The notes under the pieces are model-generated. The model searched no databases. It saw only the letters and a list, made by a program, of their open reading frames with translations, and was not told the origin of the DNA. Below are positions 34,126 to 39,869 of a stretch of DNA of 64,000 nucleotides, in pieces. The translations under genes were made by a program, and so were the position numbers. The number at the start of each line of letters is the position of its first letter. The first letter of the stretch is position 1. This DNA comes from Anaerococcus sp. Marseille-P3915 (lineage in GTDB: Bacteria; Bacillota; Clostridia; Tissierellales; Peptoniphilaceae). The DNA lies in NCBI RefSeq assembly GCF_900258475.1, contig NZ_LT984887.1, forward strand, positions 1-64,000. Direction: 5' to 3'.

Positions 34126-34156
34126 AAAAGACAAGCTTCAGGGCTTGTCTTTTTTT
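34126..34156 (+). terminator. tuf operon terminator
   Basis: AAAAGACAAGC (34126-34136) pairs with GCTTGTCTTTT (34143-34153), then T to 34156. The group II intron's first base follows directly. Confidence 0.92.
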
Positions 34157-34634
34157 GTATGACGGGCATGTCCTAAGGCTGGGGTGAAATTCCCTACAGA
34201 GCGTAGTTACCAACGAATCTAATAGCGACCCCGAAGTTTTAGGTGGCGACATCTAGGAGAGAAGAACGGGTAGCGAAATCGTGGCTTGACGAACAGAAAC
34301 AGAATATAAGGCGTAACAGGTGGGCAAGCTAGCAAGAGATAGCAAAGACCCAAAAGGTAACCGTAAACCCAAAGCGTAAATTCTGCAAGTAAACGATGAA
34401 AGTATTAGGACTTATCCCGTGAGGTCTCATAGACGACGCAGTAGTAACAACGAACTATGAGAAGTCAGCAGAAGTCATAGTAGGTGGAAACACCGAAGGA
34501 CCGAACAATTTAACAGCATAAGCAAAATGTATGTAGCATAACAAATCTGACAGAGAAAGTAGAAGAAACGTAAATGAACTCAAAATCTCACACCTAAGAA
34601 AAAGTTATGTAAGCGGAAAGGAGCAAGTGCACAC

Positions 34635-35915
34635 ATGGAAGATAATTTAATAAATCAAATCCTAAACCCAGAAAATATGCACCAAGCCAAAGTAAAAGTT
34701 ATCTCCAATAAAGGAGCAGCTGGAACAGACGGAATAAGTGTAGAAGAAATAGATGAATACATCAAAGAAAATTGGGCAAGGATAAGACAAGAAATAATCG
34801 AAAGACGCTACAAACCACAACCAGTACTCCGAGTAGAAATCCCAAAACCAAACGGAGGAAAAAGAAAACTCGGAATACCAACAGTAATGGACAGAATAAT
34901 CCAACAAGCAATCGTACAAGTACTAACCCCAATAATAGATAAAAGATTTTCTGAAACAAGCTATGGCTTCAGACCAGGAAGAAACTGTCAAATGGCAATA
35001 ACCAAAAGCCTAGAATACTTAAATGATGGATTTGGATGGGTAGTAGACATAGACCTAGAAAAATTCTTCGACAAAGTGCCACAAGATAAACTAATGAGCA
35101 TAGTCCATGAGCATATCAAAGCACCAGACACAGAGTCACTAATCAGAAAATACTTAAAAGTGGGAATAATGAACAAAGGTATATACGAAAAAAGTGAAAT
35201 AGGAACGCCTCAGGGAGGAAACCTATCACCACTCCTAAGCAACATCATGCTAGACAAACTAGACAAAGAGCTAGAAGCAAGAAAGCTTAGATACACAAGA
35301 TATGCAGATGATTGTCTAATATTTGTAGGAAGTAAAGCAGCAGCAACAAGAGTAATGCATTCAGTAACAAGATTCATAGAAAACAAACTTGGCTTAAAAG
35401 TAAATGCAGAAAAAAGCAAAATAACAAGACCAAACAAAATAAAATATCTTGGATTTGGCTACTGGAAAGACAACAAAACAAATCAATGGAAAGCACGAGT
35501 CCATGAAACATCATTTAAAAGATTCAAGGATAAAATAAAGAAACTAACCACAAGAAAATGGCCAGTATCCCTAGAATACAGAATCAAAAAGATAAATGAA
35601 GTAATAAGAGGCTGGATAAACTACTTTAAAATAGCAAGCATGAAAAGCAAACTAAAAAGTTTTAGCGAGCACCTAAGAACCAGACTCAGAATAATATGCT
35701 GGAAAATGTGGAAAGTACCAAAGAAAAGACAATGGGCGTTAAGAAAAATGGGAATAGTAAAAGACCTAGCAAGATTAACATCCTATTGTGGAAACAGATA
35801 CTACTTTGTAGCAACAAAAACCTGCTTAGTAAGAGCAATCACAAAAGAAAGATTAAGTAAAACAGGCTTAATTGACCCTTATGATTACTACATAAGCAGG
35901 TCATGTGTAAATTAA
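34635..35915 (+). CDS. ltrA: Group II intron reverse transcriptase/maturase
   Basis: 426 residues. Reverse transcriptase core with 'YGFRPGRNCQMA', the 'DIDLEKFFDKVPQDKL' block and the catalytic 'RYADD' motif near residue 228. The maturase (X/GIIM) domain follows: 'RIKKINEVIRGWINYFKIASMKSKL'. No HNH endonuclease domain is present, so it should retrohome without second-strand cleavage. AAGGAG precedes ATG 34635. The frame is uninterrupted, so the intron may be active. Protein and RNA are from the same element; codon use leans more to A than nearby genes, consistent with acquisition. Confidence 0.93.
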   Translation: MEDNLINQILNPENMHQAKVKVISNKGAAGTDGISVEEIDEYIKENWARIRQEIIERRYKPQPVLRVEIPKPNGGKRKLGIPTVMDRIIQQAIVQVLTPIIDKRFSETSYGFRPGRNCQMAITKSLEYLNDGFGWVVDIDLEKFFDKVPQDKLMSIVHEHIKAPDTESLIRKYLKVGIMNKGIYEKSEIGTPQGGNLSPLLSNIMLDKLDKELEARKLRYTRYADDCLIFVGSKAAATRVMHSVTRFIENKLGLKVNAEKSKITRPNKIKYLGFGYWKDNKTNQWKARVHETSFKRFKDKIKKLTTRKWPVSLEYRIKKINEVIRGWINYFKIASMKSKLKSFSEHLRTRLRIICWKMWKVPKKRQWALRKMGIVKDLARLTSYCGNRYYFVATKTCLVRAITKERLSKTGLIDPYDYYISRSCVN

Positions 35916-35917
35916 AT

Positions 35918-35977
35918 TGAACCGCCGTATGCCGAACGGCACGTACGGTGGTGTGAAAGGGGCTAGATCTTAGCCCC
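35918..35977 (+). ncRNA. Group II intron domains V and VI
   Basis: Domain V (35918-35957) is the catalytic hairpin, with CGC where the catalytic triad is expected; domain VI (35959-35977) is a perfect 7-bp stem with a 5-nt loop. No unpaired branch-point A stands out in domain VI, which might mean hydrolytic splicing. Confidence 0.75.
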
Positions 35978-35992
35978 TATTCGATTGGTCAA

Positions 35993-36006
35993 GTGACCAA
36001 GGTCAC
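35993..36006 (+). promoter_or_regulatory. CRP/FNR-type palindromic operator of pflB
   Basis: GTGACCAAGGTCAC is a perfect palindrome with GTGAC half-sites. Its centre (35999.5) is about 41.5 bp upstream of the start expected from the -10 at 36029-36034, the class II activator position. A regulator with matching recognition residues is encoded at 39198-39869. Confidence 0.7.
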
Positions 36007-36028
36007 ATACAAGAAAACTTTTTCCATA

Positions 36029-36034
36029 TATAAT
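36029..36034 (+). promoter_or_regulatory. -10 element of the pflB promoter
   Basis: TATAAT with no recognisable -35 hexamer at the right distance, as expected for an activator-dependent promoter whose -35 region is replaced by the palindrome. Confidence 0.65.
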
Positions 36035-36086: not shown

Positions 36087-38342
36087 ATGGAAAAATTAGC
36101 ATACGATGGATTTAAAGGACAAAAGTGGAAGGATGAAATTAACGTTCGTGATTTTATCCAAGAAAACTACACACCTTATGAGGGAAGTGATGAGTTTTTA
36201 GCTCCAAAGAGTGAGAGAACAAGGAAACTGTTTGACCAAGTAGAAGAATTAATTAATAAAGAAATAAGAGATTCTTACAGAAATGCAGATACAAGCAGGT
36301 TTTCTTCTATAGATGGGTTTGACGCAGGCTATATTGACAAGGAAAACGAAGTTATAGTTGGTCTGCAAACTGATGAAGTCCTTAAAAGAATAGTTAACCC
36401 TTATGGTGGCTACAGGATGGTTGAGCAGTCTCTTGAAGCTTATGGTCAAGAGATGGATCCTGTTCAAGCTAAGTATTTTAAAGAATTTAGAAAAACTCAT
36501 AATGAGGGTGTTTTCGATGCCTATACAAAAGATATGAGAAAGGCAAGAACTGTGGGACTTTTGACAGGTTTACCAGATGCCTATGGTCGTGGTAGGATAA
36601 TCGGCGATTACAGGAGAGTTGCCCTTTATGGTATCGACAGGCTAGTTGAAGAGAAGAAAAAAGACTTAGATAAGATTGAAATTGACGAAAATAACCTAGA
36701 AGCAAGTATAAGACTTAGGGAAGAAGTTAGTGAGCAAATAAGAGCCCTTGGCAAGATCAAAAATATGGCGGCTAAATATGGTATTGATATTTCAAATCCA
36801 GCTACAGATGCTAGGGAAGCTGCACAATTTTTATACTTTGGCTACCTAGCAGCTGTTAAAGAAAACAATGGGGCTGCCATGTCAATTGGTAGAAATGCAG
36901 GTTTCTTAGATATTTATATCAAAAGAGATATGGACAGGGGAATCCTAGATGAACTTGGTGCCCAAGAAATAATTGACCAACTTGTTATCAAACTAAGACT
37001 TGTTCGCCACCTTAGAACTCCAGACTATGATGAAGTTTTCGGAGGAGACCCAACTTGGGTAACAGAATCAATTGGTGGTATGGGTCTAGATGGAAGGACT
37101 CTTGTTACAAAGACAGCCTTCAGATACCTAAATACCCTTATTAACCTAGGATCTGCACCAGAACCAAACATGACGATTCTTTGGGCTGAAAAACTTCCTG
37201 AAGGTTGGAAGAAGTTTTGTTCTAAGGTTTCAATTCTTACAGATTCTATCCAATACGAAAATGATGACTTAATGAGAAATATGTATGGGGATGACTATGC
37301 CATAGCTTGCTGTGTATCAGCCATGGAAGTGGGCAAGGAAATGCAATTTTTCGGAGCCCGTGCTAACCTTGCAAAATCATTGCTATATTCAATAAATGGA
37401 GCAGTTGATGAAAAGAAAAGGAATAAGGATGGCAGCCTAATAAGAGTATTTGAAGATATTGAGCCAATAACAAGTGAATATCTAGACTATGATCAAGTCC
37501 TCACAAATTATAAGAAAGTCTTATCAGAATTAGCAGGACTTTATGTTAAAACCCTAAATGTTATCCACTTTATGCATGACAAATACGCTTATGAAGCTGG
37601 ACAAATGGCCCTTCATGATACCTATGTAAAGAGGAATCTTGCGACAGGAGTGGCTGGACTTTCAATAGTAGCTGATTCCCTATCTGCAATAAAATATGCC
37701 AAAGTTAAAGCAGTAAGGGATGAAAATGGAATAGCTGTAGACTTTGAAACTGAGGGAGACTTCCCTAAATATGGCAATGATGATGATAGGGTAGATGAAA
37801 TAGCTGTAGAAATATTAACCTACTTTAGCAATGAGCTTAAAAAACACGCAACCTATAAAAATTCTAAGATAACCCTGTCAGCCTTAACCATAACATCAAA
37901 TGTAATGTATGGTAAGAAAACTGGATCAACACCAGATGGAAGAAAGGCAGGAGAAGCCTTTGCACCAGGTGCAAACCCAATGCATGGTAGGGATGAGTCA
38001 GGTGCACTAGCAAGTCTAAACTCAGTAGCTAAGCTTCCTTACGAATGTGTATGTGAAGATGGCATTTCAAATACCTTCTCTATAGTGCCAGATGCCCTAG
38101 GTAAGGAAGAAGAGGTAAGGATAGAAAATCTAGTAAATATAATGGATGGCTACTTCGGCCAAGACGCCTTCCACCTAAATGTAAACGTCCTACAAAGGGA
38201 AAAATTACTAGATGCCTACCATAACCCAGATAAATATCCAAACTTAACAATCAGAGTGTCAGGATATGCTGTTCACTTTAACAGGCTCACAGATGAGCAA
38301 AAGAGAGAAGTCCTAGAAAGAACCTTCCATCAAACAAGATAG
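36087..38342 (+). CDS. pflB: Pyruvate formate-lyase (formate acetyltransferase)
   Basis: 751 residues from ATG 36087, preferred over ATG 36057 because AGGAGG lies just upstream of it. The glycyl-radical enzyme converts pyruvate and CoA to acetyl-CoA and formate without oxygen. The active-site pair C408-C409 is in '[11 protein letters not shown]', and the radical glycine G726 in the C-terminal 'IRVSGYAV'. Conserved '[15 protein letters not shown]'-like sequences are seen. pflA follows after 129 bp and a weak terminator. Activation by the downstream-encoded CRP/FNR protein is likely but inferred. Confidence 0.97.
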
Positions 38343-38365: not shown

Positions 38366-38400
38366 AAGGGGGACTCAGTAGAGTCCCTTGGACTTTTCTT
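38366..38400 (+). terminator. Weak terminator between pflB and pflA
   Basis: GGGACTC (38370-38376) pairs with GAGTCCC (38381-38387) around AGTA, followed by an interrupted T-rich tract. Partial read-through to pflA is plausible, leaving less PflA than PflB. Confidence 0.65.
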
Positions 38401-38471: not shown

Positions 38472-39188
38472 ATGAAAGTTCATTCTATAGAAACAATGGG
38501 ACTAGTTGATGGACCTGGGATTAGGACTGTATTTTTCCTATCAGGTTGCCCTTTAAGATGTGCTTTTTGTCACAATCCCGACACCCAATCTCCTACTTTT
38601 GGTAGGGAATTTAGCCTGGATGAATTGGTAAAGATGGCCCTTAGGATGAAACCTTATTATAAAAATGGAGGCGGCGTTACCTTATCAGGTGGTGAGCCTC
38701 TTTTTAGTGGAGAATTTGTCCTTGATGCCATAAGAGCTCTTCATAAGGAAGGAATCCATGTGGCAATTGACACTTCAGGTATAGGAAATCCAAAATATAA
38801 TAGGGATATAGTAAGGGAAGCTGACCTCATTATCCTTGATATAAAACACTATGACCCTTACTTTTTTAAGGCCCTTACAGGAATTGACCAAAAGCCTCTT
38901 CGCGAATTTATGAAACTAATAGAAGACTCTTCTACCAGGATTTGGATTAGGCATGTAATGATGCCTTTTGTGACAGATACAAAAGATGATATGGAAAAAC
39001 TTATCGAATTTATATCTCCCCTCAAGAAGAATATTGATAAGTTTGAAATCTTGCCTTACCATACCATGGGTGTCGATAAATACAAACTTTTGGGGAGAGA
39101 TTATAGGCTTAAAAATATGGAGCCTATGGATAAGGATAAGGCTAAGGACCTTGAAAAATATGCTAGAGATATGATAAAATCCTTATAG
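38472..39188 (+). CDS. pflA: Pyruvate formate-lyase activating enzyme (radical SAM)
   Basis: 238 residues. Generates the glycyl radical on PflB using S-adenosylmethionine. The radical SAM cluster ligands are C26, C30 and C33 ('SGCPLRCAFCHNP'), and the 'GGGVTLSGGEPLFS' SAM-binding motif follows at about 70. AAGGAG precedes ATG 38472. The length is typical (about 240-250). 10 bp separate it from the CRP/FNR gene, so they share an mRNA. Confidence 0.96.
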   Translation: MKVHSIETMGLVDGPGIRTVFFLSGCPLRCAFCHNPDTQSPTFGREFSLDELVKMALRMKPYYKNGGGVTLSGGEPLFSGEFVLDAIRALHKEGIHVAIDTSGIGNPKYNRDIVREADLIILDIKHYDPYFFKALTGIDQKPLREFMKLIEDSSTRIWIRHVMMPFVTDTKDDMEKLIEFISPLKKNIDKFEILPYHTMGVDKYKLLGRDYRLKNMEPMDKDKAKDLEKYARDMIKSL

Positions 39189-39197
39189 GAGTATTTT

Positions 39198-39869
39198 ATG
39201 GATAGAAATGAAATAAAAATTTTATCATATCTTGATGAAAAAGAATTAAATAGCTTTCGAATAAGGCCTCAGATTTTAGAATATAGGAAGGGAGATATCA
39301 TATTTTCCTTTGGTGATGAGCCTAATTTTATGTATGTCATAATAGAGGGTTTTGTAAAAATTTCTATGTATCTTACAGATGGAAGGGAGCAGATTTTATA
39401 TACTTACAAGAAGGATGATTTTGTAGGGGCCCACAATCTGTTGACTGATGAGAATTATTTATATGAGGCCACAGCCCTTGATAAGACAAGGGTTCTTCTT
39501 ATATCAAAAATGGATTTTGATAATATTTTAAAAAAGAACAATGACATCCTCCTTAAGATTTTGGACCAATCCTTTAGGAGGATTAGGAGGAGTGAGGAGC
39601 TTATTGATAGGCTGGTTGGCCTAAATGCTGATATGAAGGTGGCCAAGCTCTTGCTTGATCTGGCCTATGATATAGGAGTTGTCAAAAAGGATGGGGTTTT
39701 GATTAGATCTCACCTAAGCCGTGAGGAACTTGGCTCTTATTCGGGAGTTGTGAGGGAGACCTTATCTAGGAAGCTTTCTAGCTTTGAAGATAGGGGTCTT
39801 ATCAAGATTATTGCTAGGGGTAAGATTTTAATTACAAATATAGAAGCTCTAGAAAAGATGACTTCATAA
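39198..39869 (+). CDS. CRP/FNR-family transcription regulator
   Basis: 223 residues. A cNMP-binding-like beta roll (about 10-115), a long dimer helix (115-145) and a C-terminal winged helix ('LSREELGSYSGVVRETLSRKLSSFEDRGLI', in two parts near 174-203). It has no cysteine at all, so it cannot hold an FNR iron-sulfur cluster. The recognition helix carries R186, E187, S190 and R191. R and E at these places match CRP, which reads GTGA, and the pflB palindrome has GTGAC half-sites. Co-transcribed with pflA; probably autoregulates the pfl cluster. The ligand is unknown. Confidence 0.9.
   Translation: MDRNEIKILSYLDEKELNSFRIRPQILEYRKGDIIFSFGDEPNFMYVIIEGFVKISMYLTDGREQILYTYKKDDFVGAHNLLTDENYLYEATALDKTRVLLISKMDFDNILKKNNDILLKILDQSFRRIRRSEELIDRLVGLNADMKVAKLLLDLAYDIGVVKKDGVLIRSHLSREELGSYSGVVRETLSRKLSSFEDRGLIKIIARGKILITNIEALEKMTS

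Follow-up and report, generated by a model that had tools for sequence, protein, structure and literature searches.

A conserved palindrome upstream of pflB and a cysteine-free CRP/FNR-type regulator encoded in the same operon: a predicted class II switch in Anaerococcus

The window analysed here, a stretch of 64,000 nucleotides of Anaerococcus sp. Marseille-P3915 (contig NZ_LT984887.1), carries in this order tuf, a terminator-like hairpin, a group II intron, a palindrome, a -10 hexamer, pflB, pflA and a gene for a CRP/FNR-type regulator (Table 1). It had been proposed from the sequence that pflB and a CRP/FNR gene belong to one cluster, and searches with Pfam and NCBIfam confirmed this, with pflA as a further member. 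The regulator is a protein of 223 aa that belongs to the CRP/FNR superfamily by both domain matches, a cNMP-binding-like domain (PF00027, 75.2 bits) and a Crp-type helix-turn-helix (PF13545, 60.8 bits). The hairpin in the gap between pflB and pflA could reduce the expression of the activase and the regulator relative to that of PFL.

Table 1. Features of the pflB locus, in window coordinates
Feature	Position	Strand	Basis
Group II intron, preceded by the tuf terminator and followed by the pflB promoter	34160..35985	+	Rfam; TIGR04416 reverse transcriptase/maturase; 5' edge approximate (34150-34160)
Candidate regulator site AGTGACCAAGGTCACA, TGTGA-N6-TCACA type	35992..36007	.	Centre 35999.5 = -41.5; sequence and conservation upstream of pflB
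-10 hexamer TATAAT	36029..36034	+	In 40/41 aligned promoters, TANNNT at +30 relative to the centre of the site
Predicted transcription start	36041	+	Pyrimidine-purine step at +41/+42 in 38/41
pflB, pyruvate formate-lyase	36087..38342	+	TIGR01255, 1193.6 bits (cut-off 994.2)
Terminator-like hairpin in the pflB-pflA gap, possible attenuator	38368..38389	+	Consensus scan only
pflA, radical SAM activating enzyme	38472..39188	+	TIGR02493, 262 bits (cut-off 231.75)
Cysteine-free CRP/FNR-type regulator, last of the three genes	39198..39869	+	PF00027 and PF13545 above cut-off; begins 9 bp past the end of pflA

In the window sequence, GTGACCAAGGTCAC occupies 35993-36006. The position of the palindrome in the original prediction was borne out, and its form was corrected: the arms are 6 bp each around a central AA (GTGACC-AA-GGTCAC), and the element is better read as xGTGA-N6-TCACx, with an A at the first base as its single mismatch to TGTGA-N6-TCACA. 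The exact sequence GTGACNNNNGTCAC occurs once in the whole window; copies with up to two mismatches number 5 against 7.6 expected, and these looser matches are therefore meaningless. The prediction had also called for a genome-wide scan, and across the 2.25 Mb of the genome exact GTGACCNNGGTCAC was found once. The sites within one mismatch of TGTGAYNNNNRTCACA number 11, and the only two in promoters lie before pflB and ldh; a third target sought among them was not found, the other 9 being within open reading frames. A looser search gave 25 sites against 11 in the control, and six were inspected, of which the four besides pflB and ldh were all within open reading frames. Near-consensus sites across whole genomes numbered 88 against 34 in a backwards-read control for seven genomes with the regulator, and 77 against 55, a smaller excess, for seven genomes without it. 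As an excess over the control is present in both groups, genome counts alone are weak proof.

The group II intron, which the original prediction did not mention, lies directly before the palindrome. Its 3' edge was placed at 35985/35986 by an identical copy elsewhere in the genome, where shorter matching pieces are also found, and the site starts 5-6 bp downstream of this edge. The sequence originally upstream of about -55 is now about 1.8 kb away in this strain, with the site and the core promoter intact. Such closeness could mean that the palindrome is a piece of the intron target, or else a chance repeat. However, relatives with different upstream sequence have the site at the same place, and no such palindrome follows the identical intron copy, so both origins were rejected and their probability is negligible.

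The distribution of the site among relatives is more informative than its count. Within the genus, the 7 of 31 genomes that have pflB are also those that have a close regulator ortholog (orthologs counted at E 1e-61 or better; 15 of the 31 have some CRP-type match at E 1e-10), and all seven have the site upstream of pflB. A survey of the order covered 71 of its 82 genomes with pflB, and the core GTGA-N6-TCAC was sought up to 300 bp upstream of this gene (fewer at contig ends); 67 of 80 regulator matches were examined, and a genome was counted as without the regulator if it had no match at E 1e-28. For the window's family (f1) and families f7, f8 and f18, the core was present upstream of pflB in 41 of 43 examined genomes with a regulator homolog. 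In the window's family, it was found in 19 of 20 genomes with the regulator adjacent, in 12 of 12 with the regulator elsewhere in the genome, and in 0 of 3 without it. The corresponding counts in other families were 10 of 11, 3 of 8 (two with a spacing other than that of class II, and one lying too far upstream for alignment) and 2 of 17. Only 0.14 cores were expected by chance in 71 dinucleotide-shuffled regions, and the relatedness of the genomes inflates all counts given here. Two genomes of one genus illustrate the pattern, as G064 has both the regulator and the site and G065 has neither.

There are exceptions in both directions. Two genomes (G121 and G049) have a regulator homolog, and the core was not found upstream of their pflB. 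The two genomes counted as having the core without the regulator (G043 and G045) have kept the site; the adjacent gene was not found, and a homolog of 30-32% identity is present elsewhere in each genome. At these two loci (L216 and L217), a cobalamin riboswitch lies shortly past pflA, and at the locus of a relative (L177) the regulator gene precedes the cobalamin riboswitch.

Conservation at a fixed promoter distance in nearly all the examined relatives with the regulator gene indicates that the palindrome is very probably the binding site of the operon-encoded regulator. The recognition residues named in the original prediction (R186, E187, R191 and the FNR-like S190) are all present, and 70 of 70 homologs have R186, E187 and R191 unchanged. 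In PMC1274295, R180/E181 are linked by a published rule to site positions G3 and A6, the G and A of TGTGA, and the regulator of the operon has these residues. A search of the strain's own genome for cNMP-binding domains gave two proteins, the operon regulator and an HcpR-like protein, and the latter could use the site in principle, having a CRP-type helix-turn-helix domain. However, its gene adjoins hcp (L066 2975-5484 on contig 2 of the genome), a Pro, as read by eye, replaces the recognition Glu at the specificity position, and the sequence upstream of hcp is GTAACATTAGTTAC, a GTAAC-N4-GTTAC motif that agrees with the HcpR2 motif published in PMC1274295. The HcpR-like protein was therefore rejected as the user of the site on sequence grounds, and its involvement is very improbable. 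The proposed pairing of palindrome and regulator is thus supported by co-occurrence, conserved position, the recognition rule and the elimination of the other CRP-type protein found. The main points of the original idea hold up, with firmer support than the sequence alone could give.

Another factor could use the site, for example the redox repressor Rex. Rex controls pfl elsewhere, and its N-terminal domain was found in all 31 genus genomes. There is a slim chance that Rex uses the site, but the site accompanies the regulator gene in the genomes examined, and its inner bases are GTGAY..RTCAC, not the GTGAA..TTCAC of Rex-like sites. Moreover, all three pflB genes of the window's family without the regulator are also without the site, the Rex search having covered the genus genomes rather than these three. 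Rex has been reported to control ldh in Streptococcus mutans (PMC3616900).

To examine the promoter geometry, 41 sequences were aligned, anchored on the site centre alone; these are the 43 of families f1, f7, f8 and f18 minus the two without the core, and outside them stand three genomes of other families with the homolog elsewhere and two without a homolog. A TANNNT hexamer starts at +30 from the centre in 40 of the 41, with TATAAT displaced downstream by one base in the exception (G013), and 38 have a pyrimidine-purine step at +41/+42. Taken together, the hexamer and the step put the site centre at -41.5 and give the predicted start in the window, so the position claimed originally holds, with its spacing kept across the relatives. 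The site is thus centred where class II activators bind, relative to a predicted start and with a -10 spacing common to 40 of 41 promoters. The original prediction saw no -35, and this is true of the window, where a consensus scan gave no -35/-10 pair at the pflB promoter and only CATACA stands at the -35 place. Across the 41 relatives a degenerate -35 may be weakly kept: at +7 to +12 (best of spacings 16-18), 16 of 41 have four of six matches against 5.9 expected from mononucleotide shuffles, but this element overlaps the operator's own conserved bases.

With respect to sensing, the claim that the regulator is free of cysteine was confirmed, as there is none in its 223 aa. FNR-type [4Fe-4S] sensors carry an N-terminal cysteine cluster and an internal cysteine, and the regulator has neither. 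E72, R82 and S83, the cAMP-contacting residues of E. coli CRP, align to A78, Y89 and E90. Since both the cluster ligands and the cAMP contacts are missing, the regulator would read another signal, or would be limited mainly by its own amount. The absence of an effector pocket recognisable by sequence also fits a protein that binds the same site and mainly represses, or that is a passive dimer without a signal. This is rather improbable, because a site centred at -41.5 together with a poor -35 is the geometry of class II activators and is common to 40 of the 41 promoters, whereas repressors require no such fixed spacing.

The best explanation, to which we give a probability of about 0.8 as a whole, including autoregulation and the ldh target, is activation by the regulator. 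Dimers of the CRP/FNR-type regulator would bind the palindrome as their operator, with its centre 41.5 bp before the start, and would act as class II activators by bringing RNA polymerase to a promoter whose -10 is good and whose -35 is almost lacking. The regulator would thereby switch on pflB, pflA and its own gene, the third of the operon, presumably on a single transcript. At five loci (L147, L170, L172, L174 and L183), a core that coincides with the start of the regulator gene or lies just before it suggests autoregulation there as well; these five are among 34 loci where the regulator has no adjacent pfl, and the low proportion was counted against the best explanation.

The second near-consensus promoter site lies upstream of a gene for L-lactate dehydrogenase (ldh, NCBIfam). 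Among 24 genus genomes examined, this ldh site is present in four (the window's own genome, G000, and G001, G005 and G009), all of which have the regulator, and TAAAAT stands at +29 from the site centre in each of the four. It is absent from two genomes with the regulator (G013 and G025) and from 18 genomes without it. In G008, the genome with the nearest regulator on the tree, no match to this ldh was found at E 1e-30, and G002, in which the match begins at residue 38, was left out of the upstream survey. The regulator therefore probably also activates ldh here and in the close relatives G001, G005 and G009, and would govern two fermentative exits from pyruvate. The original description of the pair as self-contained was nearly right, the ldh site being the one further near-consensus promoter site.

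The absence of cysteine is not general among the homologs. An N-terminal cysteine cluster was found in 24 of 70, all outside the window's family, and these 24 form one side of one branch (support 87/91) in a midpoint-rooted tree without a studied FNR or CRP. The segment is likely to be an Fe-S module, and the direction of change appears to be loss of cysteines rather than gain, as far as midpoint-rooted trees that include no studied FNR or CRP can indicate.

In some relatives, PflA and the regulator are encoded as one open frame. Nine such loci were found in the window's family, one of them cut by a contig end, and a sample of 391 genomes of the class yielded two further fusions, both in a different family, making 11 genomes in all (L165, L167, L168, L169, L171, L178, L181, L184, L187, L238 and L239). 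Both halves were found by Pfam in four of four fusions scanned, and the radical SAM CxxxCxxC motif is kept in eight of the nine family fusions, the ninth being the one cut by the contig end. A single origin of the fusions was considered: on the larger tree two changes are needed and one origin appears in 2% of bootstrap trees, and the tree without the other-class loci permits one origin (62%).

In these fusions the activase occupies the terminus that carries the cysteine segment in the FNR-like homologs, a segment missing in the window's family. This makes PflA a conceivable source of the signal, with the activase doubling as a sensor, although we consider this a speculative reading and an unlikely one. 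In Anaerococcus, PflA and the regulator would then work as separate proteins from adjacent genes, and the PflA cluster, SAM or the engagement of PflA with PFL would set the transcription of the very enzyme that PflA activates. That the regulator reads a signal other than oxygen at an Fe-S cluster, as originally claimed, agrees with its lack of cysteine, but FNR-like N-terminal cysteines are present in homologs of other families, and PflA, a radical SAM protein with an Fe-S motif, is fused to the regulator in some relatives.

Where the regulator is missing, pflB is often preceded by an RNA switch instead. A ZTP riboswitch was found upstream of pflB in 13 of 20 order genomes examined without the regulator, the three of the window's family having no riboswitch. 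With a homolog elsewhere in the genome, the riboswitch was present in 3 of 20 genomes, none of which has the core site, and with the regulator adjacent it was found by Rfam in 0 of 30 scanned loci (L021 left out). The site and the riboswitch were never together at the 70 loci examined for both, so their use on pflB is mutually exclusive there.

The survey of the order also revealed split PFL proteins, in which a large chain of 707-718 aa ends within the glycyl-radical domain and is followed by a separate protein of about 79 aa (L135, L139, L129 and L132, in G079, G080, G082 and G091). The small protein at L139 is GrcA3 by NCBIfam (167.9 bits against a cut-off of 158). The order-wide search gave 83 matches to PFL, and 10 of them stop at profile position 663-670 of 744.

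Anaerococcus is part of the human microbiota, and the predicted circuit would be a dedicated and testable switch in strict anaerobes for the formate exit and, in one clade, the lactate exit from pyruvate. Another question is how a protein related to FNR can function with no Fe-S cluster, and the PflA-regulator fusions make this directly testable. Neither the operon-regulator pair nor the fusion is named in the titles and abstract openings of open-licence papers among the matches listed, which is weak evidence of absence. PflR of lactic acid bacteria was considered as a name and not used, since the published table with that name gives no family.

When the regulator is compared with known systems, FNR shares its CRP/FNR fold domains, the class II geometry and the pfl target, as E. 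coli FNR acts on pfl, and the homologs outside the window's family share the N-terminal cysteine clusters of FNR. However, the regulator has no cysteine, and its site is of the GTGA-N6-TCAC form, the only form sought in the relatives, not the FNR consensus TTGAT-N4-ATCAA. E. coli CRP is alike in its recognition residues (R180, E181 and R185, corresponding to R186, E187 and R191) and in the TGTGA-N6-TCACA type of site, from which the window site departs at one base. It is unlike in its cAMP contacts, which are not conserved here, and near-consensus promoter sites in this genome are few. HcpR proteins are likewise CRP/FNR regulators of anaerobes that are often encoded beside their target, and the Desulfovibrio HcpR consensus is given as wTGTGAnnnnnnTCACAw (PMC1274295). 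The target of HcpR is hcp, whereas the neighbours of this regulator are pflB and pflA, and the HcpR-like protein of the same genome is another gene with another motif. The ZTP riboswitch (Rfam RF01750, the pfl RNA motif), unlike the regulator site, is a switch made of RNA. The site-regulator pair is a predicted regulatory unit shared by the family and some neighbouring ones, and it would add a new form to the control of pfl by FNR/CRP proteins.
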